Origin: Marinoscillum furvescens DSM 4134
Lineage (GTDB): Bacteria; Bacteroidota; Bacteroidia; Cytophagales; Cyclobacteriaceae
Length of the DNA: 64,000 nt
Assembly: GCF_003386095.1 (NCBI RefSeq)
Contig: NZ_QREG01000016.1
Location: forward strand, 1-64,000
Direction: 5' to 3'
Every line of letters begins with the position of its first letter. Position 1 is the first letter of the stretch. The position numbers and the translations under genes are program-made. The notes below the pieces were generated by a model. It saw only the letters and a program-made list of their open reading frames with translations. It did not search any database and was not told where the DNA came from. Below, piece after piece: positions 24,250 to 63,426 of this stretch.

Positions 24250-24256
24250 AGCTTTA

Positions 24257-25057: not shown

Positions 25058-25069
25058 TAGTTCAGGGAA

Positions 25070-30692: not shown

Positions 30693-30720
30693 ATACTCTT
30701 GATTAGGAGATTTGATCCGT

Positions 30721-43796: not shown

Positions 43797-46700
43797 TTAT
43801 TGTTTAATAATTTTTTTCCGTTGGATTTTACTTTCGTCGGCTAACAACTCCACGAAATACACACCAGTGCGCAATGAGCTTACATCTATTTTTGCACCGC
43901 TCTGCTGGCATGTCCCCTGCAATTGAACAGCACCCGCAATGTCTAATATCCGATAGTCCATATTGCTTGTAACTCCCTCTAGGAAAAGCACATTTTTGAC
44001 AGGATTGGGAAACACCACTATCGCATCTTCTTTCATTGCATTGAGCGGAATAGCTACTTCACCCACCGTGATATTTACGATCTCCGATTGACCTACATCA
44101 CCATCATCATCTATTGCAATAGCTTTCAGCTGATACTCACCCTCGGTGGCATTGAGCCAAACGGCTGAGTAAGGTTCTGAAGAGTCTTCACCTAGCTTGA
44201 CATCACCCCGGTAAATCTCCACTCTCGCTATAGCGCCATCCGTATCTGTGGCAGACACTTCCACTTTGATATTCTCACCTATTTCAAATACTGAACCTTC
44301 GGCAGGTGAAGTGATAGATGCAGATGGTATTTCATTTGGTGGAGGTGTCACGCTTATGTACACTGCCTCAGAAGTTACCTTACTCCCGATATTGTCGGTT
44401 GCTACAGCTGTCAGGCTATATTCGCCTATTTCAGCATCACTCCAGGTGATCGAATAGGGAGCACTGGTAGCTTCACCTATTTTCACATCATCACTAAAAA
44501 ACGCTACCAATTCTATGGTACCATCACTGTCGGTGGCTTCTGCTTCAATGGTGATGGCTTCTGAAATTACAAAGCTGTCACCGGCTGAAGGTGATGTGAT
44601 AGACACAACCGGCTCTTGATTGGATGTTCCTTTGAAAGAGATATCCAAAAGCGGCTTGTATTGATCTTCTGCTCTTTCTCTTGAGTGAAAATCAATCCCT
44701 GTAGAGGTGGTTTCCGGGTCTGCTATCACAAATGTTACGATTCCATCAGTACTGTTCTCTATTTTCACATAGTCGGTTACATCCCATTCCACGTAGGTAT
44801 TGGCCTGCGACGAAGTAATTGCAATGTTGGCTACTTCACTACCTACCGTAGGTTGGTTACCGTGGTTGAGTACCAGTTCCTCCCAGGAATCATCATATAC
44901 CCGATAAACTGATCTAGTAGAGGACGATGCTGCCCTCACACTCAATTTCAGTTTAGCTGATGTAATAGGTCCAAAAACTCCTCTGATATCAAACTTGTAA
45001 AAGGCATACCGGTGATCCACCGAACTCCATTTGGTTACTGTCTTCACATCGGTACCGTAATTTTGGCCTGAGTTACCGCTATGAACATACGTATCGGCAA
45101 TCGCCACTAATTGTTTGCTGGAGCTGGCCTGTTGATTGGCATTTACCGTCACAGTCACTCCTGCTGAAAGTGTACTGGCCTTGCTATCATCGGTAGCTTT
45201 TGCGAAGAATTCATAGGTGCCTTCAGCGAGATATTCTAAGTCCAGTTCGAAAGGTGCTGTATCGTCTTCTCCTATTTTATCCTCACCTAGAAAGAACTCC
45301 ACTTTAGAAACTTTCCCGTCCGAATCTTCGGCCGAGGCAGCTATTTGGAGGCTTGCTCCCTCCGTAAGTACGGCGCCTGTAGTAGGCGATGTGATGGACA
45401 CATCAGGAGCCTCGTTTCCTTTTACGAAAAACACGCTAAAGCTATTCAGACTGAAACTATCATCTTCTCCTGCTATATAAACTCGAAAGGTGCTTACCCC
45501 TGGTGCCAACTTAACGTTTTCCGAAACGGTAAAATCAACATAGGTAGTACCACCCCCAGTAGCTGGAAGGGTAACTTCCTCAGTCAGGTCCAGGCCTGCC
45601 CCGGCGAATTTTACTTTTCCACCACCGCTTGCTGAAGCATAGTTCACGGAAATTCCATAAGTTCCGGATTCCGGAATATTCAAGGTATAACTTACCCATT
45701 CTCCATTTTGTAAATTGGCTAGCGCAAAGTCTTCACCACTCACCAGCTGAATATCCACGTCATCTGTACGATACTGCCCTCCAGAATTACCTTCACTAAG
45801 ATCATGATAGGTTCTGCCCTCTCCTGAGATAGGGAAATGATCGTAGTTCTCGGCCTGGATAATTATTGGATCGCCAGATTCAAAGCCAAATACTGGAATG
45901 CCATTCTGAATACCTGTTATGGGATCACCTGCAGCCCAAACAGGGCGTCTAAAGCAAAGTGCTCCCCACCCGGGATGATCCAGACTAAACCCGATCTGCT
46001 CATATCCTGCCTCTTCTATGGCTACATCCAGGCCTCTTTTTGTCCATTTGGCGTCTTCGCCTATCCCCATTCTCACATCAAAGTGCGCCCAGGCTTGTTC
46101 ATAAACAGGCCTTTTCCCCGGAAACCCACCTCTACTAACATCTTCAAAGTTGGAAGAAAAGTGAGGATTCATGGCCTTAGAGTACCATCTTCCCGTTCTA
46201 TCAATTCGCTGAATGAATTCAGCGTTTTCACCCGACCCCACATTAGGGTCTGGCTCCCACGGAGTGGGTTGGTCTTCAAAAGATCTAATGTAAGACACAT
46301 TGTATCTGGACATGTGCTCATATCCTTTCAGCAGTCTATTGTCTAAAAAATTCCAGGCATCATCGCCCTGATTCCAGGCTACTTCTGCAAATCCTGATAA
46401 AATACCCAAACCAAAATAAGCGTGCTGCTGATCACGACTGGCCTCCTGGCACTGACCATTTTCCCAGATAAAATGCTCTATTGCGCCATTGTATCCGTAG
46501 TTTTCTATGGTGCCTTCGGATCCTACATATTCGTAGCTTGAAAAGTACTGGTTATCATCTATGAGCCTACCTGAGGGTGAAGGGCCCGTGGGCAGTGGTA
46601 AATCATCCGTGCGTCCTGGCTGGCTAGTGAGGTATCTGTAAGCACGATCATACATTTTCCTGTTGTCCAGAAACACCCCCATAATGGCCATGGCACGGAA

Positions 46701-47330
46701 TGAAATTGCATCCTGATTTCCATGCCGACCCGAATCTCCGTTGAGTATACGCCAGTAAAATGACCCAACGGTTTCCGAATTCACTTCTTCAGGAATTGCT
46801 GTAGAGGAATATCCTGGATAGACCAGCATATCCTGAAATGCTTTGATATCGCTAGCAGTCCATCCATCGTAAGTGCTTTTAATGATTTCGGCAGCTTCTA
46901 CCATTTTCCACGCAAAAATTCCAGCATCGAGAGGGATACCACCCACATAGGTAATGTTTTTCCAGGCATTGAAAATCTCCACACATTTGTCTGCATGACG
47001 AGTATCGCCAGTGATCGCCCACATGAGGGCGTTGTGGTATGCGGCATTGGCATCAGAGTGATAAGCACCACTATTTTCGCCATTTCGAGTAACCCGAGTA
47101 TTGGATGAACTCCCCTGAACTTTATAATCATAAGATGCCAGGTTAGTAGCTTTTAATTGCTCAAACGACGTGGCATAAGGCTCTACCCCTGCTTCCACCA
47201 TGTAGCGCATGCGATCCAGATCAGACTGCTTAAACAGGCCTCCCGGATGAATGAATTCTTGAGCAACCCCTACATGTGGCCATGCAACCACGAAGCTTGC
47301 AATGAGTATGACGTAATTAATAATCCGCAT
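43797..47330 (-). CDS. Alginate-lyase-fold protein with CBM6, CBM96-like and Ig-like modules, T9SS-exported
   Basis: Secreted protein of 1177 residues. A signal peptide spans 1-24. Residues about 25-480 form an (alpha/alpha) toroid of the alginate_lyase superfamily (HPGGLFKQSDLDRMRYMVEAG, HSDANAAYHNALMWAITGDT, SGRHGNQDAISFRAMAIMGV). About 488-630 is CBM6-like (IIQAENYDHF). About 632-722 is an Ig-like Big_9-type domain (FFLGEDKIGEDDTAPF), and about 735-897 is a DNRLRE/CBM96-like module (DTYVHSGNSGQNYGTD, RYAFYKFDI). Two more Ig-like domains and a T9SS sorting domain (VVFPNPVKNVLF) complete it. The catalytic target is uncertain: the superfamily includes PL17, PL38 and PL39 lyases. It lies in the SusCD operon 132 bp after the small lipoprotein. 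Confidence 0.8.
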   Translation of the reverse strand: MRIINYVILIASFVVAWPHVGVAQEFIHPGGLFKQSDLDRMRYMVEAGVEPYATSFEQLKATNLASYDYKVQGSSSNTRVTRNGENSGAYHSDANAAYHNALMWAITGDTRHADKCVEIFNAWKNITYVGGIPLDAGIFAWKMVEAAEIIKSTYDGWTASDIKAFQDMLVYPGYSSTAIPEEVNSETVGSFYWRILNGDSGRHGNQDAISFRAMAIMGVFLDNRKMYDRAYRYLTSQPGRTDDLPLPTGPSPSGRLIDDNQYFSSYEYVGSEGTIENYGYNGAIEHFIWENGQCQEASRDQQHAYFGLGILSGFAEVAWNQGDDAWNFLDNRLLKGYEHMSRYNVSYIRSFEDQPTPWEPDPNVGSGENAEFIQRIDRTGRWYSKAMNPHFSSNFEDVSRGGFPGKRPVYEQAWAHFDVRMGIGEDAKWTKRGLDVAIEEAGYEQIGFSLDHPGWGALCFRRPVWAAGDPITGIQNGIPVFGFESGDPIIIQAENYDHFPISGEGRTYHDLSEGNSGGQYRTDDVDIQLVSGEDFALANLQNGEWVSYTLNIPESGTYGISVNYASASGGGKVKFAGAGLDLTEEVTLPATGGGTTYVDFTVSENVKLAPGVSTFRVYIAGEDDSFSLNSFSVFFVKGNEAPDVSITSPTTGAVLTEGASLQIAASAEDSDGKVSKVEFFLGEDKIGEDDTAPFELDLEYLAEGTYEFFAKATDDSKASTLSAGVTVTVNANQQASSSKQLVAIADTYVHSGNSGQNYGTDVKTVTKWSSVDHRYAFYKFDIRGVFGPITSAKLKLSVRAASSSTRSVYRVYDDSWEELVLNHGNQPTVGSEVANIAITSSQANTYVEWDVTDYVKIENSTDGIVTFVIADPETTSTGIDFHSRERAEDQYKPLLDISFKGTSNQEPVVSITSPSAGDSFVISEAITIEAEATDSDGTIELVAFFSDDVKIGEATSAPYSITWSDAEIGEYSLTAVATDNIGSKVTSEAVYISVTPPPNEIPSASITSPAEGSVFEIGENIKVEVSATDTDGAIARVEIYRGDVKLGEDSSEPYSAVWLNATEGEYQLKAIAIDDDGDVGQSEIVNITVGEVAIPLNAMKEDAIVVFPNPVKNVLFLEGVTSNMDYRILDIAGAVQLQGTCQQSGAKIDVSSLRTGVYFVELLADESKIQRKKIIKQ

Positions 47331-47462: not shown

Positions 47463-47933
47463 TTATCTGGTTAGATCAATGGTAATTGTCCACGTGCCGA
47501 TCCCATCCACACGGCTGCTGGCTTGTGAAGTAGAAAAGCTAATTACCAGCTGCTCTAATGACGCTGTAACAGTGACCCCCGTAATGTCCAGTTTAGCTCC
47601 TGTAGCAGCAACGATAGAGGCATTGGATACTGTACCGTCTTCAGATACACTAAAAGAACCGCCACTGATATAGCTATCCAGTCCGCTAGTAGCATCTGGT
47701 ACAAATCCAGCCGTACCGGTACCCACAGAGCTGGATACCGTGATACTTGGATCTGTGATACCTGCATCTGCAGGAATGTTATCTGTCGAAAAACTCCAGG
47801 TACCTTCTATTGCTTCCAGCACTTGCTGGCCCTGACTAGTAGCGACATCATCTTCTCCACAGCTGGTCAAAAGCAGTACACAGGCTATAACCGCGCAGAA
47901 TGACTTGATACGATTTATGCTTAATAGATTCAT
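47463..47933 (-). CDS. Small SusCD-associated lipoprotein, unknown fold
   Basis: Lipoprotein of 156 residues with lipobox cysteine C25 (LLLTSC) and the CGEDD start that often leads to surface export. The body begins IEGTWSFSTDNIPADAGI and consists of short S/T/G-rich strands, consistent with a lipocalin-like or small beta-barrel protein; I do not recognise a named family. Its place, 27 bp after the triple-CBM96-like gene and within the SusC/SusD transcript, suggests a surface glycan-binding or accessory role. Confidence 0.65.
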   Translation of the reverse strand: MNLLSINRIKSFCAVIACVLLLTSCGEDDVATSQGQQVLEAIEGTWSFSTDNIPADAGITDPSITVSSSVGTGTAGFVPDATSGLDSYISGGSFSVSEDGTVSNASIVAATGAKLDITGVTVTASLEQLVISFSTSQASSRVDGIGTWTITIDLTR

Positions 47934-47960: not shown

Positions 47961-50669
47961 TTATTTGATCACTTTCACAGATCTAACCTCGTCCTGTGAT
48001 CCAATGTGCAGTAAATACTGCCCTTTAGGTAGCGCCGAAAGATCCAAATCCAACGTGCGCTGAGACTTAGCTGTAGTCTCCAGTACCAGTCGTCCATTCA
48101 GGTCGAATAAGTAAACTCGATCGATTTTCTTGTCACTAGATATCGTCAACTTGTTAAGGAATGGGTTCGGATATACGGCCAGGTCTATTTGCTTGTCTGC
48201 ACCAGTGACCAGCACTGTGGTAGACAGTCCCACTGTGTAGGTCTTTTTGGTTTCTCCATCTTCTGCCACCACTTCTACTAGTGCATATTCCACTTCCCCG
48301 GGGGTAAGCGCTGATGGCAGTTGAATGCTCACCACTGAATTGGTATCACTAGGGATAGCCACAATCGCGGGCACATCCAGTGCATCATGCTCATAGCTAT
48401 AAGCAAACTGATTGGATGAAAAATCCTCCAGGGTATCCGAACCAACAATTATCATTGATAAGGTAGGATCGTCATTAGGCTCCAGTACATTCCAGGCTAT
48501 TTTTATGGTTTTAGTCACTGTAACATCCTGAGCTGTAACAGTAATCACTGTAGTATCACTTACAGTAGCTGCTGGACTTACCTCAGCAACCGCACCTTCG
48601 AAATTCACCTTTGGTGTCACTGTAGGCACTGTAGTAGTACCAAATGGCAGGTCAACTGTATAGAGGATCTTGATCGGATTGAAAAAAGGAATCATCTCTC
48701 CATCCACTAGCAATTCCGCGAGTGAAGCATCTCTGTTGGGGTCGCCTTCTTCCCAGATCAAGTGATAGATCACACTGTCCATTTCTGTATCTCTTACGAT
48801 GACCAAAGTGGTATCTCCCTGAATAGAGGTTGCATTGACTACTTCTACAGTGGAAGTAGTAGCGAGTGCGGTACCTGAAACCGCAGGCACGGGATCGGCA
48901 TAAGGCACTTCGATGTTGTATACAGTCTTCTGAGGGTCGAAATCAGCAGGAGTCTCGCCATTCACTTTAAGATCGGCTAACTGCAGACTATCGGAAACAC
49001 TGTTTTCTATGGTCACATCTCCAAAGATTAAAAGCTCAGGTGCAGCATAGCCATCTACATTTTCCTTAGCCCATATATCGAACGTATTTACAGCCCCTGA
49101 CACCAACTCCGAACGAGCTGCTATCCCAATGCTGCCGTTTTCCTGATTCGCATTGAAGTAATCGGTAACATTTACCGCATATCTCACGCTATTGGTGCTT
49201 GCCGAACTTGCATCAAATGTGCTAATCACCTCCAGGGTATCAAATCCATTATTTGGGGCATTAGCATATGTAATAGTAGACTCGTCCCAGTTAGTAGGGT
49301 AGCTCAAAAACTCAATTTTACTACCGGCCTTTCGAAGCGTAAAGCTTAGTTGGACACTGTCTATCGTACCCACTACATTGCCAGGCATATCAAACTTCAT
49401 CATGCCAGCAAACTCATAGATATCATTTCTACTTAAGCCGCTAATAGCTTTATCTGTCCCAAAGTTTGAGGCTTCATTGTTTTCATTGCCCGTACGAACT
49501 TTAGAATCCTGAGTAACACTTATGGCCTGGGCAAAAGACACATCTCCATAGATCAAAAGTTCTGGTGCAGCATAGCCATCCACATTGTCTTTAGACCAAA
49601 TATCAAACTCTGTAGTAGATCCTGAGATCAGCTCTGATCGTACAGCCAGATTGAGGCTGCCTTCATCCATATGAGCCAGGAAGTAATCAGTAATGTCTGC
49701 TGAATGCCTTACCGAGTTATTCGCGGCTCCACTAGCATCAAACGTGCTAATCACACTAAGTGTGTCAAATCCATTATTGGGAGCATTGGCATAAGTAACG
49801 TCTTCTTCATCCCAATCTGACGAATACTCAAGAAATTCAATAGCATTGCCGGTATTCTTTCTTAGGGTGAATCCGATATGTACACTATCAATTCTACCAA
49901 CCACTTTACCTGGCAAGTCAAAACCCATCATGCCGGCAAATTCGTAGATTTCATTTCTACTCAATCCACTGATGGCCTTATCCGCTCCAAAGTTTGCAGC
50001 TTCGTTGTTTTCGTTTCCGGTACGTACTTTGGCATCCTTCGTAATAGCTACAGATTGAGCAAGTGCTACATCTCCGTAGATCAATAGCTGAGGAGCAGGA
50101 TAGCCTTCTGTATTGTCCTTACTCCACATATCAAAGGTATTCGTAGCGTTCTCTACCAATTCGGATCTAGACCCTATACCGATACTTCCCTCATCTTTAT
50201 GAGCTACAAAGTAGTCAGTGATATCTACCGAATACCTTACCGTATTGTTCGTCGTACCATTCGCATCGAAAGAACTGATTACAGTAAGTGTATCAAAGCC
50301 ATTATTGGGTGCATTGGCATAAGTAATTGTAGACTCGTCCCAATCCGTCGGGTATTCCAAAAACTCTATCAAACTGCCATTTTTACGCAGTGTAAAGCTG
50401 AGGTGCACACTATCTATGGTACCTACAACTTTTCCAGGCAAATCAAACTTCATCATGCTGGCAAATTCGTAGATACCATTTCTGCTCAAGCCTGTAGTGG
50501 CTTTATCGAACCCATAATTCGAAGCCTCATTGTTATCATTTCCGGTGCGAACTTTGGCGTCTTGCGTGACATTGATTGCCAAAGCTGGCTCCTCTTGCGC
50601 TTGTGCTGTCAGGAAAGTACCAACAAGCATCACAACGACTAACGTATATTTCTTTATGAATAATTTCAT
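47961..50669 (-). CDS. T9SS-exported protein with three CBM96-like repeats and cadherin-like domains
   Basis: Surface or secreted protein of 902 residues with no recognisable catalytic domain. A signal peptide spans 1-25. Three tandem modules of about 177 residues (30-206, 207-383, 384-560) each contain AKVRTGN-type starts, GLSRN-IYEFA, FTLRK and TYANAPNNGFDTL. They resemble the DNRLRE/CBM96 fold, a family with alginate-binding members. Three cadherin-like beta-sandwich domains follow (about 565-815; LKVNGETPADFDPQKTVYNI, LLVDGEMIPFFNP). A T9SS sorting domain ends it (VYPNPFLNKLTISSD ... GQYLLHIG). It lies inside the SusCD transcript, 34 bp after the IPT/TIG lipoprotein, and is likely a multivalent glycan-binding adhesin or scaffold. 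Confidence 0.8.
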   Translation of the reverse strand: MKLFIKKYTLVVVMLVGTFLTAQAQEEPALAINVTQDAKVRTGNDNNEASNYGFDKATTGLSRNGIYEFASMMKFDLPGKVVGTIDSVHLSFTLRKNGSLIEFLEYPTDWDESTITYANAPNNGFDTLTVISSFDANGTTNNTVRYSVDITDYFVAHKDEGSIGIGSRSELVENATNTFDMWSKDNTEGYPAPQLLIYGDVALAQSVAITKDAKVRTGNENNEAANFGADKAISGLSRNEIYEFAGMMGFDLPGKVVGRIDSVHIGFTLRKNTGNAIEFLEYSSDWDEEDVTYANAPNNGFDTLSVISTFDASGAANNSVRHSADITDYFLAHMDEGSLNLAVRSELISGSTTEFDIWSKDNVDGYAAPELLIYGDVSFAQAISVTQDSKVRTGNENNEASNFGTDKAISGLSRNDIYEFAGMMKFDMPGNVVGTIDSVQLSFTLRKAGSKIEFLSYPTNWDESTITYANAPNNGFDTLEVISTFDASSASTNSVRYAVNVTDYFNANQENGSIGIAARSELVSGAVNTFDIWAKENVDGYAAPELLIFGDVTIENSVSDSLQLADLKVNGETPADFDPQKTVYNIEVPYADPVPAVSGTALATTSTVEVVNATSIQGDTTLVIVRDTEMDSVIYHLIWEEGDPNRDASLAELLVDGEMIPFFNPIKILYTVDLPFGTTTVPTVTPKVNFEGAVAEVSPAATVSDTTVITVTAQDVTVTKTIKIAWNVLEPNDDPTLSMIIVGSDTLEDFSSNQFAYSYEHDALDVPAIVAIPSDTNSVVSIQLPSALTPGEVEYALVEVVAEDGETKKTYTVGLSTTVLVTGADKQIDLAVYPNPFLNKLTISSDKKIDRVYLFDLNGRLVLETTAKSQRTLDLDLSALPKGQYLLHIGSQDEVRSVKVIK
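48990..50582 (-). repeat. Three 531-bp tandem in-frame repeats inside the CBM96-like gene
   Basis: The units are about 50052-50582, 49521-50051 and 48990-49520. They are visible at the DNA level: a TCAAATCCATTATTGGG-type segment recurs at about 49228, 49768 and 50299. The exact multiple of three keeps the frame, and copy number could change by recombination. Confidence 0.8.
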
Positions 50670-50703: not shown

Positions 50704-52410
50704 TCATTCGAATCTTAAATTGTAGGCATTCATAGCTTCTACAGACTCAAATGTCCCTATCCAGTCTATGTCGTAGCCAGTCAGGTCATTGCCTGTTTGC
50801 TCCTTATAATAGTCTGGGTCAAAGCCCGCCATTTTGATTTGAAAAATCTCATAGGTTACCTCATTCAGATCCTCTGGAACTTGCTTGTGAGAATTGTCCC
50901 AGTTATTCCAGTAGTACAATCGATCACCAGCCTTTGTAGAAGCGTCTTGTGTGGCATCACTTAGCTGAAACTCACCAAAAGCAAAATCCCGAACAAAAGA
51001 TCCTACAACTTCCCCGTCTACTTTTCCTACAGGAGGCCTGTCTCTTTCACCAAACTTCACAGCGAAAATTGGGTAATCCTTAGAAATGGTTACAGAGTTT
51101 CTATGATACGGATGCTTAGGATCTCCAGTAATGTTATTTCTCGGATCATCTACACCTACTCCCTGTACGGGGAACGTATTCATAAACAAATGGTATAAAT
51201 CTGCTCTTCGATCGCCTGTAGTTTGTGCAAACTCTACTTTGATTTGGCTATTCGCTATTTGGTAGGTACCACCATGCGTAGGCAGCCAGTCATTTTTACG
51301 TTCATCATCACCCGGCTCATTATCAAACTCCCAAAGGAATTTACCTACCGGAAACGGATCGTAAGACTTGAGTGTCGCTACGCTCTCAAAAGAACGAATC
51401 CATTGCACATTGAAATTTGATTCACCAGAGCTCTTGGCAATTTGAAATTCTATATCGGTAACTAGTGTTTCAGCTGTAACATAATCACCCTCCGTGAGGT
51501 CATAGTAGTAAATATCACCGTCGATTATGCCGGTGTAGGTATTTGCTCCATCTCCAAAGGTTCCGAGACTAGACACCAAGCTCAACTCAAAATCAGCCAA
51601 CCTGGTCATTCTTATGGCCAAAATCGGAAATTTATCCGGATTGAAAACTACTTCTCCTTCGTAAGCAAGGGAAGCCTGATTGCCCCCTCCAAAATCGACA
51701 ACTAACGCTTCATCAGCTAGAGAAAGGGATGCATCGGAGCTCCAACCTTCCGCACTTTCCACGAACTCATTAGCAAAACCAAAGAATGGGAAGGTAAAGT
51801 CAAACGAACTTTCAACAGCCTCAGGTCCAACCTGTACCTTCAGCGGGCCTGTAGATCCTCCATCGGGCACCACAGCTACAATCTCCGTATCAGTAACAGA
51901 CACCACCACGGCTTCTACATCTTCCTCGGTACCGGTAAATGAAACTGACACCTCAGACTTGCTAGTCCCGAAATTGGAACCGGTAATGGTCACCTGATCA
52001 CCAGCCTCTCCTACTTCTGGAGATACCGCCGTGACCGAATGTGAGGTAGCCACTGTAAATGACTCTTCAGATACAGCCTCCTCACCGAAGATGACCACTG
52101 AGAGGGTACCCGTAGTGGCACCCGCTGGCACACTAACTACCAGCAAAGACTCTGATGCCTGCTCTACCGACGCTTCTACACCATCGAAAGATACTTTTAC
52201 CGAGTTGGTTTGTGATGAAAAGTTTTTTCCTAATATCGTTACCACCGTACCTACTCTGCCTTCATTAGGAGAAAAGGAGATGATTTCTGGCGCTGTGGAG
52301 GGCGGCTCAGGGCTATCCTCAGTACAACTGATAATAGTCACAATCAGCCCAAGGCAAGAAATAAGCATCAAGGCTTTACCCCACCTCTTCTTAAGTTTAT
52401 TTGTCATCAT
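50704..52410 (-). CDS. IPT/TIG surface glycan-binding lipoprotein (SGBP-B-like)
   Basis: Lipoprotein of 568 residues (IISC, C29). Two IPT/TIG Ig-like domains (about 39-122, SPNEGRVGTVVTILGKNFSS; and 124-207, SPEVGEAGDQVTITGSNFG) form a stalk. The distal part seems to be two related beta-rich units, each ending in a matching phrase: WIRSFESVATLKSY near 335 and WIGTFESVEAMNAY at the C-terminus. This design matches surface glycan-binding proteins encoded next to SusD, which hold polysaccharide at the outer membrane for SusC. It starts 38 bp after susD. Aromatic-rich stretches in the second unit (YYWNNWDNSHK) are plausible sugar-binding surfaces. Confidence 0.82.
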   Translation of the reverse strand: MMTNKLKKRWGKALMLISCLGLIVTIISCTEDSPEPPSTAPEIISFSPNEGRVGTVVTILGKNFSSQTNSVKVSFDGVEASVEQASESLLVVSVPAGATTGTLSVVIFGEEAVSEESFTVATSHSVTAVSPEVGEAGDQVTITGSNFGTSKSEVSVSFTGTEEDVEAVVVSVTDTEIVAVVPDGGSTGPLKVQVGPEAVESSFDFTFPFFGFANEFVESAEGWSSDASLSLADEALVVDFGGGNQASLAYEGEVVFNPDKFPILAIRMTRLADFELSLVSSLGTFGDGANTYTGIIDGDIYYYDLTEGDYVTAETLVTDIEFQIAKSSGESNFNVQWIRSFESVATLKSYDPFPVGKFLWEFDNEPGDDERKNDWLPTHGGTYQIANSQIKVEFAQTTGDRRADLYHLFMNTFPVQGVGVDDPRNNITGDPKHPYHRNSVTISKDYPIFAVKFGERDRPPVGKVDGEVVGSFVRDFAFGEFQLSDATQDASTKAGDRLYYWNNWDNSHKQVPEDLNEVTYEIFQIKMAGFDPDYYKEQTGNDLTGYDIDWIGTFESVEAMNAYNLRFE

Positions 52411-52448: not shown

Positions 52449-54227
52449 CTACCATTCAGGATTTTGTGTCAGGTTGTAATTAAGCTTTATTTGATTTAGC
52501 GGTATCGGAAAGAGGTAATTCTTTCGACTGAAATTCCTATTGAAGGAAGGGTTGAGTATTACAGCTTCACGCACACCCACACCAGTTTCTACGGCTTTTA
52601 CACCATAGGCATAAGCTGATGGATCATAGAGTCCATTAGACTCATATTCTGTACCCTCGATCACCGGACCTAGCACGTCTTCGTTTAGTTCTTGCTCGGC
52701 TATTCCCCAGCGCTTCAGGTCGTTAAACCGACTGTTTTCGGCATACAACTCTATAGCCCGTTCACGACGTATTTCTTCCAGTATGTCCAGGTCATTGGCA
52801 GCTGCCAATGCATTACTGAGTGGAGCCACTCCTGCTCGATTTCGCACTTGATTGAGCGAAGCGTCCAAATCAGCATCTGAAATACCACCATCTCGTTCAT
52901 AGAGTGCTTCCGCATAGATTAAATAAACCTCGGCCAAACGAAGATGCGGCCAGTTGTAAGACTCTTCTCCAGACAGCCTGTAAACGCCATAGTTGTACGA
53001 TCTGAATTTACGGGCTTTTACGCCAGCTCCACTAGCGGCTCCAGGAGCACCAGATAAAAACACTGACCCGTCTTCAGGAACCAATTCTCCGAAATAAGAT
53101 ATCAACCTGAAATCTCGATTTTTAAATTCATCAGAGGTCTTGTTATATCCTTCAAAAAGAGGTGATTTATCTACTGGCAAGCCATCTGCGCACAAAGCCA
53201 AATCCATCAATTTTCTACTGGGTGCCAGTCGATCATAAACCGTATGGCTAGTACCTGTACCTCCTGTTCGCAAATTCCGGTCATAGATTGACTGAATGAT
53301 AAACTCCTTGTTTGATGCTTTCGTGAGACCGGCCGGATTAGACTCGGCATCCTCCAGATTGAAAAGAAACCAATTACTCAAACTGTCCAATTCCTCATTG
53401 TAATTCCACAGCTCATAGCCGCCATTATCCATTACATCGCGGGCCTGAGCGATCGCTTCTGTCAACATCTCGTTGACAGAAATGTAGCCCTCGGGCTTTT
53501 GAGAGCCCGCACCGGATGACTCGCCATCACCATCTGTAGAAGTTCCCACATACTTTTCCCAGGTCGCCTCGTAGAGCATTACTTTGGCTTTAAATGCCTT
53601 CGCTGAATATTGCCCGATCAGCCCTTTGTTTTCATCCCCCAGGCTTTGCTCTGTAGGTAGCGAAGCAATGGCCATATCCAAATCTTTAATGATTTGGTCC
53701 ACCACCTCGTATCGGCTATTGCGACTGGCAAACAGCTCTGGAGAATCCAGATCTAAAACCGTAGTAACAATCGGCACTCCACCAAATCGCTGGAGTAAAA
53801 AGAAGTGTTGCCATGCTCTGAAAAAATGGGCTGTAGCCACGTACTGTTCTATTGCTTCCTGATCACCAGCAAACTCTTCTGCCTTACTCAATAGAATATT
53901 GGCATTTCTGAGGTAGTAATAGGCATTAGTCCAATACTTATCATCGTTTGGAATGGTATTGGAGCCATTGCCTATTCCATCTCCAGGGTCATAACCCGTG
54001 AGATCACTGCCTAAGTCAAAAAAATCAAAAATAGAGCTACCTCTGTTGGAGCGTAATGATACCATACCACTATGAAGGTCAGTGGCTGCGGCTTCAAAAT
54101 GCTCAACTTCAGTAAAATATACCGTCTCTGTCACCTGATCGAGCGGATCCAAATCAAGAAACTTGTCCTCGCAACCCATGGCAACGAAGACCATACTCCA
54201 GGCTATCAGTTTATTATACAATTTCAT
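52449..54227 (-). CDS. susD: SusD-family outer-membrane glycan-binding lipoprotein
   Basis: Lipoprotein of 592 residues (lipobox VAMGC, C19) with the standard SusD start EDKFLDLDPLDQVTETVYF. The fold contains tetratricopeptide-like helices (about 80-230) that pack on SusC and a variable region that binds ligand. Late signatures are YNWPHLRLAEVYLIYAEALY and IRRERAIELYAENSRFNDLKRWG. The C-terminus YLFPIPLNQIKLNYNLTQNP is also characteristic. It acts as the lid of the SusC channel during import. It follows susC by 20 bp. Confidence 0.96.
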   Translation of the reverse strand: MKLYNKLIAWSMVFVAMGCEDKFLDLDPLDQVTETVYFTEVEHFEAAATDLHSGMVSLRSNRGSSIFDFFDLGSDLTGYDPGDGIGNGSNTIPNDDKYWTNAYYYLRNANILLSKAEEFAGDQEAIEQYVATAHFFRAWQHFFLLQRFGGVPIVTTVLDLDSPELFASRNSRYEVVDQIIKDLDMAIASLPTEQSLGDENKGLIGQYSAKAFKAKVMLYEATWEKYVGTSTDGDGESSGAGSQKPEGYISVNEMLTEAIAQARDVMDNGGYELWNYNEELDSLSNWFLFNLEDAESNPAGLTKASNKEFIIQSIYDRNLRTGGTGTSHTVYDRLAPSRKLMDLALCADGLPVDKSPLFEGYNKTSDEFKNRDFRLISYFGELVPEDGSVFLSGAPGAASGAGVKARKFRSYNYGVYRLSGEESYNWPHLRLAEVYLIYAEALYERDGGISDADLDASLNQVRNRAGVAPLSNALAAANDLDILEEIRRERAIELYAENSRFNDLKRWGIAEQELNEDVLGPVIEGTEYESNGLYDPSAYAYGVKAVETGVGVREAVILNPSFNRNFSRKNYLFPIPLNQIKLNYNLTQNPEW

Positions 54228-54247
54228 AGTATACTATTTATATTATG

Positions 54248-57200
54248 TTAGAAGGATACATCTAGTCCAAATGACCAGGTGCGGTTATATGGGTAAGTGG
54301 AGTCGGTACTCTCTCCAAACTCAGGATCATACCCATCTTTCAGGCTTGTTAATTCAAACAGGTCATTACCTGAGAAGTATATTCTTACCTTCTCCATTCC
54401 GGCTTTGTTGACAAGCTGAGTAGGAAGCGTGTAGCCCACCACCAATACTTTAAGCCTTACGTATCGATTGTTCATCATCATAAAATCTTTATGATCCCAA
54501 TTCCACTCGCCACGCTGTGTATTGGTCGTAAGTCTCGGGTAAGAGGCATCAGGGTTAGACTCTGTCCATGTTTGCCCCATATATGCAGTAGTCTGATTGG
54601 TCCAAATTCGATAGAAAGGGTACTTCATCAAGCCTGTTCTCACCACATTTTGATCCATGACCCCTTGAAACATCGCCTGAAAATCGAAGCCTTTCCAAGA
54701 AGCGCCTAGATTCAAACCGAATGTGTAATGAGGTGCAGAATCTCCCATGTATTTCAGGTCTTCTATCGTAATTTTACCATCCCCATTATGATCGATAATT
54801 TTGGTATCTCCAGGTCTGAGCTCTGAAGCAGCTACTACACTGGGGTCTGCGTCGCGTGTTGGGATCTCACCCAGTCCATCTTGCGTATAAGTTTCATAAT
54901 AAGCATCTACTTCGTCCTGGCTCTGAAACAATCCGTCCGTAGGGTATAAGAAATACGAGTTTAGGGGATATCCAACAAGTGGTTGATTTCTACCTTCAGA
55001 TGGTATTGGAGATCCTTCAAATTCTATTAGTTCGTTTCTACTATCACTGATGTTAAAAGATGCATTGTACTGAAGTGAGTTCACTTGATCTTTCCAACCT
55101 ATGACTGCTTCCCACCCTTTGGTCAGTAGGTTACCACTATTGGACTTAGGAGCATTTCCGCCCAATACATCTGGGTAGACGACTTCTATCAGCATACCGT
55201 CATTTTCCTTGATGTAATAGTCCAATGATCCGGTGATTCTGTTATCCAGAAATGTCAAATCAGCTCCCGCATTAGTCATTTTTACACGCTCCCAGGTTCT
55301 TGTATCGCTGGTCAGCCCACTTACTCTGGCTGTAGTCCTCAGTGTAGGTGGCACGCCTATTGGCAACGTACCCTGACTGATAGTGGAGACATAATCATAC
55401 AGTCCTATACCTACAAAATTTCCAAGTTCACCATAGCTTCCTCTCAGTTTGAAAAAACTCACAAAAGGCACAGCTTTCATAAATGCTTCATCTGAGATCA
55501 CCCATCCCAGAGAAACACTTCCGTAATTGGACCACCTGTTTTCAGGAGAAAATCTGGAAGAACCATCTCTTCGACCAACTAGTTCTAGCAAATATTTTCC
55601 ATTGTAGTCATAGTTAAACTTGGAGACATACGAAAGCAGCCCCCAATGTGACTGACCACCAGCAGTGCTTACCGCATCTACAGGTGCTACATTGATGTCA
55701 TAGACTCCCTGGTTTTGAATTCCCTTACGCTCTGCATACAGATTGCGATCTTCCTGAAGGTCTGCCGTGATACCCGCCATTGCCTTGAGGTTGTGCTTAT
55801 CAAAAGACTTTTCATAATTGAAGAATGAACCATAGTTCATATAGTTTCTGTCGTAATTTCTGGCGGCTATTAATGGAGTACCATTGATACGCTCTGCAGA
55901 CGGGTTACCATCCCAGGTGTAAGGCTGAACGGTCAACCGGTAGACATCCTCTCGCTGTACTCTTTTGTTAAAAGACATGGTAGCGTTTGCCGTCAGTCCT
56001 TCCAGAATTTTGAATTCTGCACCAAGATTGATTTTGGTTAAGTCTTCTGTAAAGTTTTCTCGACCTCCATCGGTAGTGGATGCCACGGCATTTCTATTTC
56101 CCGACACATTAAAATTCGCATACCAATGGCCATCTGGAGTTTTGGCTGGAAAAAATGGCGGGTCAAATGCCCCTAATTCACGGCTGAGCCCGGATGAAGG
56201 TCCGGAGGTAACTGTCCGCTGATAGGTTATACCGCTCGTCAGTGAAAGCCTGCTATTGATGTCGTAATCATAATTAAACCGAATATTGTATTGTTTCTGA
56301 CCATCGTAAGCCGTCTTAAGTGCTGTTTGATTGTCAGCAAATGCACCAGATAGGCGGTACCGGGATTTTTCAGAGGCGCCTGAGACACTGATATTGTGCT
56401 GATGCGAAAAGCTTGTTCCAAACAATTGATCAAACCGATCATGATCTCCAATATAGACATCTCCCCAGAAGACAGTTGGGTATATCCCCGACTTACCCTG
56501 CTGCATTCGCTCCAGGTTCTCTTTAGAGAGCCACCCCCAATAGGTGGTATTGGGTGCATCTTCTACTCCCGCGTCTAGCCACAGAGTAGCGTAATCTACC
56601 ATAGACGGGCCTGGAGGTCTTATTCCTATTGTATTGATTCGAAAGTTTGCATTGTACCCAACTTTCATTTTACCTTCACCTCTTTTGGTGGTTACCAGAA
56701 TCACACCGTTGGCAGCTCTACTCCCATATATGGATGCCGCCCCATCTTTCAATATACTCACAGAAGCTATGTCATCGGGGTTCATCTGATAGAACTCCCG
56801 GGCACTCATCACGGGTACACCATCTATTACCACTAAAGGCTCTCCTCCATTTACAGAAGTAGCACCTCTTATCTGGAGGTCTATACCATCGTCTGACCGG
56901 CCACCAGGTCTGGGAGTGGTCCTGGTTACTACCAAACCGGGAGTCTGCCCTTGAAGGGCCAACGCTGGGTTGGTCACTGCCCGATCTTTAAATGCCCGTT
57001 CGGTCACCTGCTCTACCGCCCCTGTCAGCGTTTGCTTGGATTGCTCTCCGTATCCTACAACAACCACTTCCTCCAGGGCTTCCACATCCAAAAGCAGCTG
57101 AATATCAAAATTAGTTCTATTATTTACCGCTACTTCCTCGGTGGTATATCCCACGTAGGAGATTACTAAAATTGCATTTTCACTTACACTCAATTTAAAT

Positions 57201-57409
57201 TGGCCATCAAGGTCGGTGGTTATTCCATTGGTGGTGCCTTTTTCAATTACTGCAGCACCCGGCAAGCCTTCGCCATACTCATCAGTAACTACCCCACTGA
57301 TGCTCACCTCTTGAGCGTTTACAGAGATAGAACCAAAAAGTGCCACCCACAATAGGACTACACTTCCTATAAATGGTCGTAATTTCCGTTGATTCGTTTG
57401 TTCATACAT
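54248..57409 (-). CDS. susC: SusC-family TonB-dependent outer-membrane transporter
   Basis: Transporter of 1053 residues. A signal peptide (about 1-32) is followed by a CarboxypepD_reg-like N-terminal domain (34-108, VSISGVVTDEYGEGLPGAAV). A short TonB-box-like stretch (EVVVVGYGEQSKQTLTGAV) comes next. The plug domain carries the SusC signature (PDDIASVSILKDGAASIYGS, then RAANGVILVTTKRG). The C-terminal beta-barrel ends in TWSFGLDVSF with the terminal aromatic. It imports oligosaccharides into the periplasm with TonB-ExbBD. It is the first gene of the SusC-SusD-SGBP-CBM96-lipoprotein series and is probably controlled by the hybrid two-component system upstream. Confidence 0.96.
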   Translation of the reverse strand: MYEQTNQRKLRPFIGSVVLLWVALFGSISVNAQEVSISGVVTDEYGEGLPGAAVIEKGTTNGITTDLDGQFKLSVSENAILVISYVGYTTEEVAVNNRTNFDIQLLLDVEALEEVVVVGYGEQSKQTLTGAVEQVTERAFKDRAVTNPALALQGQTPGLVVTRTTPRPGGRSDDGIDLQIRGATSVNGGEPLVVIDGVPVMSAREFYQMNPDDIASVSILKDGAASIYGSRAANGVILVTTKRGEGKMKVGYNANFRINTIGIRPPGPSMVDYATLWLDAGVEDAPNTTYWGWLSKENLERMQQGKSGIYPTVFWGDVYIGDHDRFDQLFGTSFSHQHNISVSGASEKSRYRLSGAFADNQTALKTAYDGQKQYNIRFNYDYDINSRLSLTSGITYQRTVTSGPSSGLSRELGAFDPPFFPAKTPDGHWYANFNVSGNRNAVASTTDGGRENFTEDLTKINLGAEFKILEGLTANATMSFNKRVQREDVYRLTVQPYTWDGNPSAERINGTPLIAARNYDRNYMNYGSFFNYEKSFDKHNLKAMAGITADLQEDRNLYAERKGIQNQGVYDINVAPVDAVSTAGGQSHWGLLSYVSKFNYDYNGKYLLELVGRRDGSSRFSPENRWSNYGSVSLGWVISDEAFMKAVPFVSFFKLRGSYGELGNFVGIGLYDYVSTISQGTLPIGVPPTLRTTARVSGLTSDTRTWERVKMTNAGADLTFLDNRITGSLDYYIKENDGMLIEVVYPDVLGGNAPKSNSGNLLTKGWEAVIGWKDQVNSLQYNASFNISDSRNELIEFEGSPIPSEGRNQPLVGYPLNSYFLYPTDGLFQSQDEVDAYYETYTQDGLGEIPTRDADPSVVAASELRPGDTKIIDHNGDGKITIEDLKYMGDSAPHYTFGLNLGASWKGFDFQAMFQGVMDQNVVRTGLMKYPFYRIWTNQTTAYMGQTWTESNPDASYPRLTTNTQRGEWNWDHKDFMMMNNRYVRLKVLVVGYTLPTQLVNKAGMEKVRIYFSGNDLFELTSLKDGYDPEFGESTDSTYPYNRTWSFGLDVSF

Positions 57410-59247: not shown

Positions 59248-62200
59248 TCATTCTTCCGCTGCATCGATGAACTCCCGGGGAGTTTTGTTAAAATGCTCTC
59301 TAAAGGTTTTCGAAAAATATGCACTCGAATTGAATCCTGTCTTGTAGGCAATTTCCTTTATGGAGTAAGCATTTTGTTTGAGTAGGTCGGCTGCATATTT
59401 GAGCCTAATCGTACGAATAAATGCGCTTGGCTTTTGGCCGGTAATGGAGCTGATCCTTCTGTAAAAATAAGACCTGCTGATCCCCAACTCCGTGACCAAC
59501 TCTTCCAGGCCAAAGTCTGAATTGCTAATATTTTCCGTGACAATTTTTATGGCTGAATCTACCAACCTTTCATCCAGTGAATTACTAGTAAAATCACTTG
59601 CCGGGCTCAGACTAGCCACTGAAGCAAACCTGTTTCTGAGCTGCTTGCGTGTTTCCATGAGATTATGCACCCTGGCTTGTAACACTTGCATGCTAAAAGG
59701 CTTTGCCAGATACGAATCTGCTCCAAGTTCGTAGCCCTCTATCTTGTCTTCCTCATAGCTCCTTGCTGTCAATAGGATGACTGGAATGCTCACGGTCTGA
59801 TCATTTTGCTTAAGCTCGCGACACATCTCAAATCCATCCATCTCAGGCATTACTACATCGCTGATAATCACATCCGGACAAAACTTTATGGCTTTTTGCA
59901 GCCCTACTTTTCCATTGTTCGCTTCTTTCACGCGGAACTTATCTTCAAACCCCTTCCTCAGATGCACACGTAACTCCTTATTGTCTTCTACTATCAGTAT
60001 GGTTTGATTTTCGCCAGTTTTGGCACTTTTATGTTCAGCTTCTGCCTCTTCGCTTTTGGTCGGCACAAGATCGCTGGTTACTAGTGTATACTCAAGTGAT
60101 TTCAAAGAATCATTACTTGCAAGGTGTTTGGACCGATGCTTCGAATGGTTACCCCATGCAGAAGAAGCCCTTTCTGTCACCAATGGCAACCTTACCACAA
60201 ACTTCGAACCCTTACCAAATTCACTTATTACGCTAATTTCTCCGTCATGCTGCTGTACGAGGCTTTTCGTATAATTTAACCCGATCCCAGTACCTGTATT
60301 GGTAGAGCTGATATGAAAAAAACGGTCAAAAACCAGAGCCAGCTCCTCCTTTTTCAAACCAATACCGGTATCTTCCACTTCAATGATGACAAAATCCTTT
60401 GGATCCGACTTACCAAGTAATCGCTTCGCTTTCGACTTCCCTTTTTCCTGGAGTATTCGCACGATAATTTTACCACCAGGATCTGTAAACTTGATAGCAT
60501 TCGATAATAGGTTAGACACAATCTTTTCCAGCTTATCCGGGTCAAACCACATATCTGTGGAGGCTAGCTCCGTTTCAAAGTGCATCTCCAGCCCTTTCAG
60601 TTTGGCCAAATCTTCAAACATGCTGTAGGAATCTTTTACGGACCGCACTACGTCTGCTTTCACTGGGTCCAATGGAGATTTGCCAAGGTCTACTTTCCTA
60701 AAGTCCAAAAGCTGATTGACGAGGTTGACCAATTTCATCGAACTGCGCTGAATTGTCAACGCAGATTCATAAGGTTTTTCATTTGGGTCCAGCTCTGCAA
60801 GTAGTTTGTCCACCGGATTTAATATCAATGCAAGCGGTGTTCTAAACTCATGAGAAACGTTCATAAAAAACTCCATCTTGTTGTGATCGAGTTCACGTCT
60901 TCGTATTTCTCTCATGGTCCGTGAATAATAACGCAAGATTATCCAGGTAATCAATGCCACTACCAGACAATAAACCAGGTAAGCATAGACCGTGCGCCAC
61001 GGTGGAGTCGCTACATGGATATCCAGAGCCGCCACGCTGGAGTTGTCCCAGTTGTCATCTAAAGTAGCCATGACTTCAAACCTGTAATCTCCACTAGTAA
61101 GGTTAGAAAAGGTAGCCGATCTATTTTCATTTTCCACATAGACCCAATCGTCACTTACTCCGAGCATCCGGTGGGCGTACTTGACGTGCTCCTGGCTGAG
61201 GTAATGCAATGCCACGAAATCAATCGTCAAGAATCCTTCATTGTATTTGAGGTTTATTCCCTCAGTTTGATTGAGCGGTTTTTCCAACAAAACCCGATCA
61301 ATTAGCGTGTCTCCCACGCCTATTTCTGTATTTAGCACACGCAAACCGGTGATCATAGGATCTACGGCCACATGATTGAGTACTACATCATCCGGATGAA
61401 AGATATTGAGACCATTGATCCCTCCTATAAATATTCTACCATCGTGCTTTTGAAATATGGACTTACTTTGAAATTCGGCACCTTGAATTCCATCCTGCTC
61501 ACTAAAATTAATTATGCGACCCTTTTCCGGGTTTAACCGGGATAAACCGCCTTTGGAGGTAAACCAGACCGTACCATCCAGCTCCACCGTTACCCCGACC
61601 ACTAGATTGTTGGCCAACCCACTCAATACGTTGTACGAAGTAATCTTACTAAAGTCTTCATCTACTCTATGCAGCCCAGTATTGCTTCCTACCCAAATAT
61701 CCCCATCTGGTCCTTGCGTAATATGCGTGATTCGCATACCCTGAAACGGCACCTTGTCAAAAGGTATAAAGGGTAATTCTTCAGGATTTTCGTAATCGAA
61801 CCTATTGAGGTCCACAACTGCCAGGCCTGATGTGGAGCCGACTAGCAACCTATTCTGCTTATCTATAAACAAATGCTGAACCCTGCTATTTGGAAGACCA
61901 GCACGCTCTATCAGTTGATTGGTAAATCGGAAAAACTTGTTTTTGCCGGGATCAAAATAATTTATACCGGATTCAAAAGTACCGACCCACAAGCCCTTTG
62001 ACCGATCCGGAGCTGCGCAAATGATCGTGTTTTCTGAAATCGAATGCTGATTTGCTTCTTCCTTTAGGTATCGGACGGCTTTTTCAGTCTTGGGATCAAA
62101 CCGGTTAATTCCTTTATCCCAGGTACAAGCCCAAATACCCCCTTCTTTTCCCTCGCACAGATAAACTATTTTGTCCGATGAGATGGTATGTGGATTATCA

Positions 62201-63426
62201 TCATCACTTCTAAAGTGTCTAAAGGTGTTTTCATGTTCATCATATAGGGTGAGTCCACCTCCGTCTATACCTATCCAGACTCTATCCTTTTTATCCACAA
62301 CTACCGCCTGCGCTATCGGTCCACTGAGTCCATTGGGTTCCTCTCTACTATGCGTCAAATGGACAAAGGCGGAGCGCGCTGCAGATAACTTACAAAAGCC
62401 CTTATTATAGGTGCCTATCCAAAATATCTCATTAGAGTCCTCGTAGGTAAAAGCGGGTTGGTTGTTGGGCAGGGAGGAAGGCTTCTTCGGATCATGGGTA
62501 ATGTGATCTCGTAATCTGAGTTCGCTATCCAACACAAATAGTCCATACCCATCTGAAGACAACCATATATTTCCCCGTGTATCACATAGCATATGAGACA
62601 CAGCCACCGTGTTTCCCAGTTGAAGATTCAGCACAGTAAACGAGCGAGACGATGGGTCAAACTTCATCAAATGTTCCAGATCATTTCCAATTAGGATTTC
62701 TCCGTCAATGGTCTCTATCAAATGAAATGGCCACTGATTAATCTCCGTTGATGTCTTTTCGGGTAATTGAAATGTTTCAAACTTTTGCTCCGCCTGTAAG
62801 TAATGATGAAGTATTCCCCTACCTGTCACCATCCAAACATCACCCTTTTCACTTATAACAATATCATCTATTTCACTACCATCTATCTTGTTTGTAGAGT
62901 CCGTAAACCTGAGCTGTTTCACTGTATTGCCCAAACTATCAAAATCAAACCGAATGAGGCCTTCTTCGGTACCCACCCACAGCCAGCGTGTCTTCGGATC
63001 AAAAGCAAGTGCCCGGATATGATTCTGAGCAGAATTATCTTGAAGGTTAAAGTCGACTCTTCGAAAGGTGTTTTTCCCTTTTGCCAGGAAATTCAATCCA
63101 TTATTGGTACCTACCCACAATCTGCCTACATGATCCTCAATCAATGAGGTGATTCTGTTGTTGCTAAGTGATGTGGTATCCCCGTTGATGTTTCGATAGA
63201 TTTCAAACCCGTACCCATCGAACTTGTTGAGTCCGTCATGAGTACCTATCCACAAATACCCTTCAGAATCTTCAAGAATTTCTATTGCCACACTACTGGA
63301 CAACCCCTCCAGTGTGCTGTAGTTATCAAATTTCAAACTAGGTACCTGGCCATTGAGCACAAACAGATTAAAGAACCCAGCCACCAACATCACTAGTTTG
63401 AACCCCCTCATTGATCTATCAATCAT
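59248..63426 (-). CDS. Hybrid two-component system sensor-regulator (HTCS)
   Basis: Single protein of 1392 residues combining sensor, kinase and DNA-binding regulator. After a signal peptide (about 1-27) comes a periplasmic double propeller built of Reg_prop repeats (about 28-720; for example DSEGYLWIGTHDGLNKFDGY, WVGTNNGLNFL). A Y_Y_Y domain follows (about 735-805) and one membrane segment at about 813-833. The HisKA domain has the phosphorylated H859 in NVSHEFRTPL. The HATPase domain includes EDTGIGL and GTGIGL. The receiver domain has D1190 in VIISDVVMPEMDG. An AraC-type helix-turn-helix lies at about 1285-1392. HTCS proteins bind oligosaccharides in the periplasm and switch on the neighbouring PUL, so the SusCD operon is the expected target. 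Confidence 0.95.
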   Translation of the reverse strand: MIDRSMRGFKLVMLVAGFFNLFVLNGQVPSLKFDNYSTLEGLSSSVAIEILEDSEGYLWIGTHDGLNKFDGYGFEIYRNINGDTTSLSNNRITSLIEDHVGRLWVGTNNGLNFLAKGKNTFRRVDFNLQDNSAQNHIRALAFDPKTRWLWVGTEEGLIRFDFDSLGNTVKQLRFTDSTNKIDGSEIDDIVISEKGDVWMVTGRGILHHYLQAEQKFETFQLPEKTSTEINQWPFHLIETIDGEILIGNDLEHLMKFDPSSRSFTVLNLQLGNTVAVSHMLCDTRGNIWLSSDGYGLFVLDSELRLRDHITHDPKKPSSLPNNQPAFTYEDSNEIFWIGTYNKGFCKLSAARSAFVHLTHSREEPNGLSGPIAQAVVVDKKDRVWIGIDGGGLTLYDEHENTFRHFRSDDDNPHTISSDKIVYLCEGKEGGIWACTWDKGINRFDPKTEKAVRYLKEEANQHSISENTIICAAPDRSKGLWVGTFESGINYFDPGKNKFFRFTNQLIERAGLPNSRVQHLFIDKQNRLLVGSTSGLAVVDLNRFDYENPEELPFIPFDKVPFQGMRITHITQGPDGDIWVGSNTGLHRVDEDFSKITSYNVLSGLANNLVVGVTVELDGTVWFTSKGGLSRLNPEKGRIINFSEQDGIQGAEFQSKSIFQKHDGRIFIGGINGLNIFHPDDVVLNHVAVDPMITGLRVLNTEIGVGDTLIDRVLLEKPLNQTEGINLKYNEGFLTIDFVALHYLSQEHVKYAHRMLGVSDDWVYVENENRSATFSNLTSGDYRFEVMATLDDNWDNSSVAALDIHVATPPWRTVYAYLVYCLVVALITWIILRYYSRTMREIRRRELDHNKMEFFMNVSHEFRTPLALILNPVDKLLAELDPNEKPYESALTIQRSSMKLVNLVNQLLDFRKVDLGKSPLDPVKADVVRSVKDSYSMFEDLAKLKGLEMHFETELASTDMWFDPDKLEKIVSNLLSNAIKFTDPGGKIIVRILQEKGKSKAKRLLGKSDPKDFVIIEVEDTGIGLKKEELALVFDRFFHISSTNTGTGIGLNYTKSLVQQHDGEISVISEFGKGSKFVVRLPLVTERASSAWGNHSKHRSKHLASNDSLKSLEYTLVTSDLVPTKSEEAEAEHKSAKTGENQTILIVEDNKELRVHLRKGFEDKFRVKEANNGKVGLQKAIKFCPDVIISDVVMPEMDGFEMCRELKQNDQTVSIPVILLTARSYEEDKIEGYELGADSYLAKPFSMQVLQARVHNLMETRKQLRNRFASVASLSPASDFTSNSLDERLVDSAIKIVTENISNSDFGLEELVTELGISRSYFYRRISSITGQKPSAFIRTIRLKYAADLLKQNAYSIKEIAYKTGFNSSAYFSKTFREHFNKTPREFIDAAEE

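Follow-up and report, generated by a model that had tools for sequence, protein, structure and literature searches.

The founder of the CBM96/DNRLRE family (PF24517, NF033679), module TM6-N4 of the alginate lyase Dp0100 (7VBO), is reported to bind alginate through K10, K22, K25, K27, K31, R36 and Y159, and alginate binding is reported to be lost in its R36E mutant (PMC9971899). The DNRLRE domain is described as 200 residues long (PMC2447325) and as occurring on haloarchaeal PL8 lyases (PMC13260240), and CBM96 as related to CBM80 and CBM113 (PMC13235733). Another DNRLRE module, 8WAB, is given as the chondroitin-sulfate-binding module of a chondroitinase, and BamH of the Flavobacterium johnsoniae BAM complex is said to resemble it most closely (PMC12611786). 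In titles and abstract openings on CBM96, DNRLRE, polysaccharide utilization loci (PULs), surface glycan-binding proteins (SGBPs) and the type IX secretion system (T9SS), no enzyme-free CBM96 protein is described as a glycan-capture protein of a PUL. Here we analyse such a candidate: a gene for a 902-residue enzyme-free protein with three CBM96 modules, carried by Marinoscillum furvescens DSM 4134 on contig NZ_QREG01000016.1. It lies within a 64,000-nt window (the whole stretch of DNA analysed), to which all positions refer unless a locus is named.

The predicted product is real and coherent, an enzyme-free protein whose three modules are of CBM96 type and whose gene belongs to a SusCD operon; its three-module repeat structure is far beyond chance. 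We regard it, with moderate confidence and from its domain content and gene neighbourhood, as a trivalent, T9SS-displayed, enzyme-free glycan-capture protein serving the SusCD pump. Its parts are as follows.

47961..50669, minus strand: gene of the enzyme-free protein, 902 amino acids (open reading frame, Pfam and NCBIfam)
50598..50669, minus strand: probable Sec signal peptide, residues 1-24, without a lipobox Cys (translation, by eye)
50061..50585, minus strand: module R1, CBM96, residues 29-203 (47.6 bits; PF24517 cut-off 26)
49533..50060, minus strand: module R2, CBM96, residues 204-379 (38.9 bits; PF24517 cut-off 26)
49005..49532, minus strand: module R3, CBM96, residues 380-555 (46.1 bits; PF24517 cut-off 26)
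48195..49004, minus strand: cadherin-like sandwich region, residues 556-825, three domains by eye (PF12733 23.5 bits, below the cut-off of 24.2)
47964..48176, minus strand: T9SS type A C-terminal sorting domain, residues 832-902 (PF18962 47 bits; TIGR04183 45.9 bits)

Pfam assigned CBM96 to three stretches of the protein and Por_Secre_tail to residues 832-900. Each of R1, R2 and R3 taken alone exceeded the CBM96 cut-off over nearly the full profile, and NCBIfam recovered DNRLRE_dom (NF033679) at 108.6 bits against a cut-off of 34, which bears out the CBM96 likeness proposed in the initial annotation. No catalytic family was detected at E 0.001 in Pfam or NCBIfam, in line with its description there as enzyme-free, and the T9SS signal also proposed there scored above both cut-offs (47 against 27 bits for PF18962, 45.9 against 23 for TIGR04183). 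By eye, the signal region contains no Cys; the T9SS domain is present instead of a lipoprotein anchor. Type A signals are reported to be recognised by PorV (PMC12618676), and type A proteins to be anchored at the surface (PMC9143113). The three cadherin-like domains of the initial annotation remain a count by eye. PF12733 matched two stretches just short of its cut-off, which is exceeded by related tails of three further proteins. These tails were found by aligning the C-terminal 347 residues, which match T9SS proteins L174 (same genome) and L175, L177 and L178 (a congener) over about 340-355 residues at 29-37% identity; PF12733 was above cut-off in or beside the matched stretch of L174, L175 and L178. 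The further domains of these homologues are DUF5123 and DUF4957 (L175), CBM4_9 (L178) and BNR_4 (L177), with none seen in L174. When the whole protein was used as query, 81 of 98 relatives matched, and among the matches listed all but the window's own gene lay in the tail (query residue 557 onward). The predicted architecture is modular, with a common stalk and sorting signal and heads that differ.

The gene is part of a one-strand series of the following features.

54248..57409, minus strand: SusC-type TonB-linked outer membrane protein (TIGR04056, 848 bits)
52449..54227, minus strand: SusD-type protein (PF07980, PF14322)
50704..52410, minus strand: probable surface glycan-binding lipoprotein, TIG and DUF4979 (PF01833 and PF16351, two stretches each; lipobox by eye)
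47463..47933, minus strand: 156-residue probable lipoprotein (no Pfam or NCBIfam match; lipobox by eye)
43797..47330, minus strand: PF05426-type enzyme with CBM6, Big_7, CBM96 and T9SS domains (Pfam)
44631..45125, minus strand: CBM96 module of the PF05426 enzyme (R4, residues 736-900; 106.4 bits; 7VBO at E 3.1e-9, 8WAB at E 9.5e-6)
59248..63426, minus strand: hybrid two-component regulator, likely sensor of the locus (Reg_prop, HisKA, HATPase_c, Response_reg, HTH_18)

The order SusC, SusD, TIG/DUF4979, 902-residue protein and 156-residue lipoprotein is tight, with gaps of 20, 38, 34 and 27 bp. The PF05426 enzyme, which carries the related module that the initial annotation had noticed nearby, begins 132 bp beyond the small lipoprotein gene and is followed by GH97, GH95, a sodium-solute symporter and an FAD oxidoreductase, then by GH2, two GH43/32-like genes, a sulfatase, GH2, two GH16 and a GH43-like gene. 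A rearranged paralogue of this enzyme occurs outside the window on the same contig (about 70.6-74.8 kb; L048 10558-14763): a 1401-residue PF05426-type protein with two CBM96, CBM6 and ricin-type lectin domains, 62% identical to it over 980 residues.

Because the gene sits in a SusC-SusD-TIG/DUF4979 operon, the role of multivalent glycan binder is strengthened. This is the part of the multivalent anchor suggested by the initial annotation that the CBM96 heads and operon position favour. We propose that Sec would export the protein and that the type IX secretion system would carry it to the outer face of the outer membrane, where the type A sorting domain probably anchors it. The cadherin-like sandwiches would form a stalk holding three CBM96-fold heads off the membrane, and the heads may cooperate to bind a polymer chain with avidity. 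The polymer would then stay close to the SusCD pump and to the operon's TIG/DUF4979 protein and T9SS enzymes. Like a classical SGBP, the 902-residue protein is encoded with SusC and SusD and has no catalytic domain; it differs in having no lipoprotein anchor, which SGBPs usually carry. Because of its T9SS domain and the missing lipobox Cys, we say that it would work like an SGBP and do not file it as a classical one. A comparable case by description, not by sequence, is the SGBP-B-like CHU_1279 of Cytophaga hutchinsonii, reported as an enzyme-free outer-membrane protein of an atypical PUL that has two CBM-like domains and is needed for growth on its polymer, although its ligand is cellulose (PMC12016534).

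At E 1e-8, CBM96 was detected in 56 of the 295 genomes from the taxonomic family, the present genome counted. We surveyed 60 regions picked from the listed matches, together with six loci (L048, L050, L051, L111, L112 and L113), a sample that is not random. Our own profile identified 82 CBM96 open reading frames in the survey regions, two of them in the window. Two or more copies occur in 39 of the other 80 and three or more in 11; tandem CBM96 is therefore ordinary. In 27 of the 80, SusD is the adjacent upstream gene on the same strand, and in 5 it lies two genes upstream. Enzyme-free types make up 12 of the 27: ten fasciclin-CBM96-Cadherin_3 proteins, of which three were run against Pfam (L051, L112 and L126) and the other seven are 51-55% identical to L112, and two CBM96x2-PKD-T9SS proteins, both run against Pfam (L050 and L111). 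Others of the 27 include enzymes, for example the PL8 protein L125, and proteins with long regions that Pfam does not match, which are not called enzyme-free. Two of the enzyme-free proteins belong to this genome and lie on other contigs (L111 8157-9818 and L112 9037-10518), directly after SusD in two SusCD loci.

The CBM96x2-PKD-T9SS proteins (L111 of this genome, L050 of a congener) resemble the 902-residue protein in their tandem CBM96, absence of a catalytic match, T9SS tail and SusD immediately upstream, and the position of Arg36 is likewise not Arg (His there). They differ in having two modules split by PKD and no cadherin-like stalk, and they are absent from the smallest clades shown around R1-R3. 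L112 and its nine homologues also combine CBM96 without a catalytic match with SusD immediately upstream, but have one CBM96; no T9SS domain was reported in the three that were scanned, and L112 keeps Arg36. What the sequences show directly is the order of the domains, the profile-based CBM96 membership, the sorting signal, the place in the operon and the recurrence of CBM96 proteins beside SusD. If the proposed role is right, SusD-adjacent enzyme-free CBM96 proteins would be marked as probable glycan-capture parts of uptake loci.

An adhesin, fixing whole cells on the algal wall with no direct part in uptake, would also make use of multivalent heads, a stalk and a T9SS type A signal, and the tail is common to other large T9SS proteins of this genome and a congener. 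Yet the tight placement between the SusD and TIG/DUF4979 genes and the operon enzyme points to uptake, as do the enzyme-free CBM96 proteins that adjoin SusD elsewhere. We therefore consider a mainly adhesive function unlikely, while noting that adhesion and uptake do not exclude each other.

Judged from the family alignment, what is unusual about the capture protein that we favour is the divergence of its R1-R3 module within CBM96. We aligned 141 domains (139 from the survey and window, 7VBO and 8WAB), having dropped two matches under 40 bits, both in L169; founder residues follow the numbering of PMC9971899, which is the chain number minus 16, as checked on printed alignments. Trp84 is retained in all 141 domains, R1-R3 included, and together with profile membership is what R1-R3 have in common with TM6-N4. 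They differ from this founder in being 18-22% identical to it, in occurring as three copies and in lacking an enzyme. At K10, K22, K25, K27, K31, R36 and Y159 they have G, K, T/S, L, N, F and T/E, so that of seven residues described as essential to alginate binding one (Lys22) is kept, in an alignment at about 20% identity. Position 36 is Arg in 111 of the 141 domains and position 27 is Lys in 99; the rows printed for 8WAB also have both. Of two other alignments, one places Phe opposite Arg36 and Ser/Thr opposite Lys27, the other Glu opposite Arg36; the exact partner is uncertain, with no Arg or Lys at these positions. K11, R13, K28 and R35 are invariant among R1-R3, and K28 aligns with Lys22 of the founder groove. 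Caveats apply to reading these changes as a changed ligand: the identity is low, at about 20%; Arg35 of the repeats, near position 36, could replace Arg36; and Arg36 is also absent from 27 of the 138 other aligned domains. The closest of these 138 is only 31% identical to R1-R3. The tree unites R1-R3 in a single clade (support 1.0) on a stem 1.37 substitutions per site long; deeper in the tree, the position of this clade has no support (0.36, 0.50). By net charge, R1, R2 and R3 (-11, -15 and -10) do not stand apart from the family as a whole (median -9) or from the alginate binder (-13).

The initial annotation had described three near-identical in-frame repeats of 531 bp and proposed a recent amplification. 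There are indeed three tandem in-frame repeats, but their lengths are 525, 528 and 528 bp (R1, R2 and R3), with start-to-start spacings of 528 and 525 bp in a DNA repeat finder, and they are far from identical: pairwise, 122, 127 and 121 of 175 amino acids agree (69.7, 72.6 and 69.1%), and DNA identity is 69.0, 70.7 and 67.8%. Nei-Gojobori (NG86) estimates for the three pairs gave nonsynonymous divergence (dN) of 0.185-0.230 and no finite synonymous divergence (dS), and third bases at comparable four-fold sites agree at 20 of 44, 11 of 55 and 13 of 49. Because synonymous sites are near saturation, we reject recent tandem amplification of R1-R3. Common descent is still visible in the DNA, where the initial annotation had found the repeats recognisable. 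Under a null of codon independence simulated from eight window genes (2000 runs per pair), the observed DNA identity of 67.8-70.7% exceeds the simulated 63.5-65.6% by 4-5 points and is attained in at most 0.1% of simulations. Same-codon use at identical residues is 44-48% against 37-39% expected, values reached by 3.0, 3.6 and 5.7% of simulations. This modest codon excess fits an old duplication under protein constraint. Identity between CBM96 modules of one protein spans 15 to 94% in the survey. Recent amplification is far better exemplified by L133 (4174-17082), a 4302-residue protein with five detected CBM96 modules whose equivalent copies are 84-94% identical.

Several observations weigh against a glycan-capture role for R1-R3. 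By sequence, the repeat profile matches 7VBO at no better than E 0.36; no solved structure matched the whole 902-residue protein at E 1; and an AlphaFold2 model from a 4-row alignment of window sequences was uninformative (predicted local distance difference test, pLDDT, 30.6; predicted template modelling score, pTM, 0.25). The repeats were also found in none of 10 related SusCD regions (profile, E 1), which were collected through SusD homologues at 47-61% identity, measure 12 to 19.5 kb and include two from this genome. Finally, losing Arg36 and Lys27 could mean lost binding rather than a new ligand. In that event R1-R3 would be a non-binding spacer or decoy that keeps the fold for structural or protein-protein contacts, consistent with the change of both positions in all three copies and with the long stem branch. 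We find this doubtful, somewhat more so than the adhesin, since dN of 0.18-0.23 alongside near-saturated synonymous sites indicates strong constraint and four basic residues are invariant, one of them (K28) aligned with founder Lys22. Least probable is that the repeats bind alginate and have the ligand in common with the CBM96 module of the neighbouring enzyme, as the initial annotation had suggested: both belong to one Pfam family and one operon, the family founder binds alginate and the enzyme carries a PF05426 alginate-lyase-type domain, but the repeats are only 20-24% identical to the enzyme module in the family alignment (27% in another alignment, 28-30% over local stretches), and at the two most conserved alginate-contact positions the enzyme module keeps K27 and R36, two of the seven contacts, whereas R1-R3 have other residues, with Phe at the Arg36 whose R36E change abolishes founder binding.

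For the glycan-capture role, the ligand seems likelier to be a red-algal galactan, or another polymer handled by the operon, than alginate. The window encodes a GH86-type porphyranase-domain protein (12808-15021) and GH117-like, GH16, GH2 and sulfatase genes (22981-31851), which point to red-algal galactan use, as predicted from their family matches. The GH43/32-like protein at 30721-31851 matches 5TA7, titled Glycoside Hydrolase, which we take to be a GH117 member, as well as 3,6-anhydro-alpha-L-galactosidases. Against a red-algal galactan, glucanases and laminarinases are numerous among the matches of the GH16 protein at 24257-25057, alongside kappa-carrageenase and beta-agarase C, and a uronate polymer is suggested by the PF05426 domain. 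The algal substrate of the initial annotation fits the porphyranase, GH117-like and sulfatase genes of the window, and a red-algal galactan as ligand of the repeats is our leading guess on mixed evidence. A bolder extension, which we put forward tentatively, is that R1-R3 may represent a divergent CBM96 subfamily whose groove was rebuilt for sulfated red-algal galactan or for a glycan new to the fold. Trivalent capture displayed through T9SS would then stand beside a lipoprotein SGBP, with two export routes at one locus. If the repeats do bind a non-alginate glycan, CBM96 specificity would be redrawn module by module, and the CBM96 label would not equate to alginate binding.

Since the repeats are missing from the 10 related SusCD regions, the 902-residue protein does not belong to the core of such loci. 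A TIG/DUF4979 homologue follows SusD in 7 of the 10 (L072, L073, L074, L075, L076, L079 and L080). In L075 the next gene encodes a T9SS protein with beta-helix, PA14 and lectin domains, and in L080 a T9SS protein with PA14; L074 has a heparinase II/III-type protein there, L072 and L073 have 915-residue proteins (the L072 copy without a Pfam match), and L076 and L079 each have a homologue of the PF05426 enzyme. As the occupant of this position changes, the slot is a variable one, and the gene for the three-repeat protein counts as accessory.

Searches for relatives of the repeats likewise yielded little. A three-repeat profile matched one of 390 order-level genomes at E 1e-8, the window's own. 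Among 395 phylum-level genomes at E 1e-5 it matched two, the other through a 31.5-bit fasciclin-CBM96-Cadherin_3 protein of G537, and among 6 genomes of the genus at E 1e-3 also two, the other through a 38.3-bit CBM96x2-PKD protein of G005; the three genome sets overlap. The other 389 order-level genomes and the 5 congeneric ones that were searched showed no comparable array. Pattern scans returned 86 candidate stretches from genome contigs and 79 from viral contigs with no confirmed relative, the patterns being drawn from R1-R3 alone so that distant relatives could be missed. No relative was found among 55 stretches from a viral-contig scan for CBM96 sequences, tblastn of R1-R3 against plasmids gave no match, and a SusD scan of genome contigs returned one 24% match, which was not useful.

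The window gave few further signals. A scan for promoters found 16 promoter-like sequences against a mean of 23.2 in shuffles, not above expectation, and one for terminators found 12 against a shuffle mean of 8.2 (standard deviation 3.3), nothing usable above expectation. GC content is even along the window (43-48%), and there is therefore no hint of recent transfer. At 8335-8714 the window contains an intergenic tandem array with overlapping periods of 41, 61, 102 and 205 bp, a possible repeat region.

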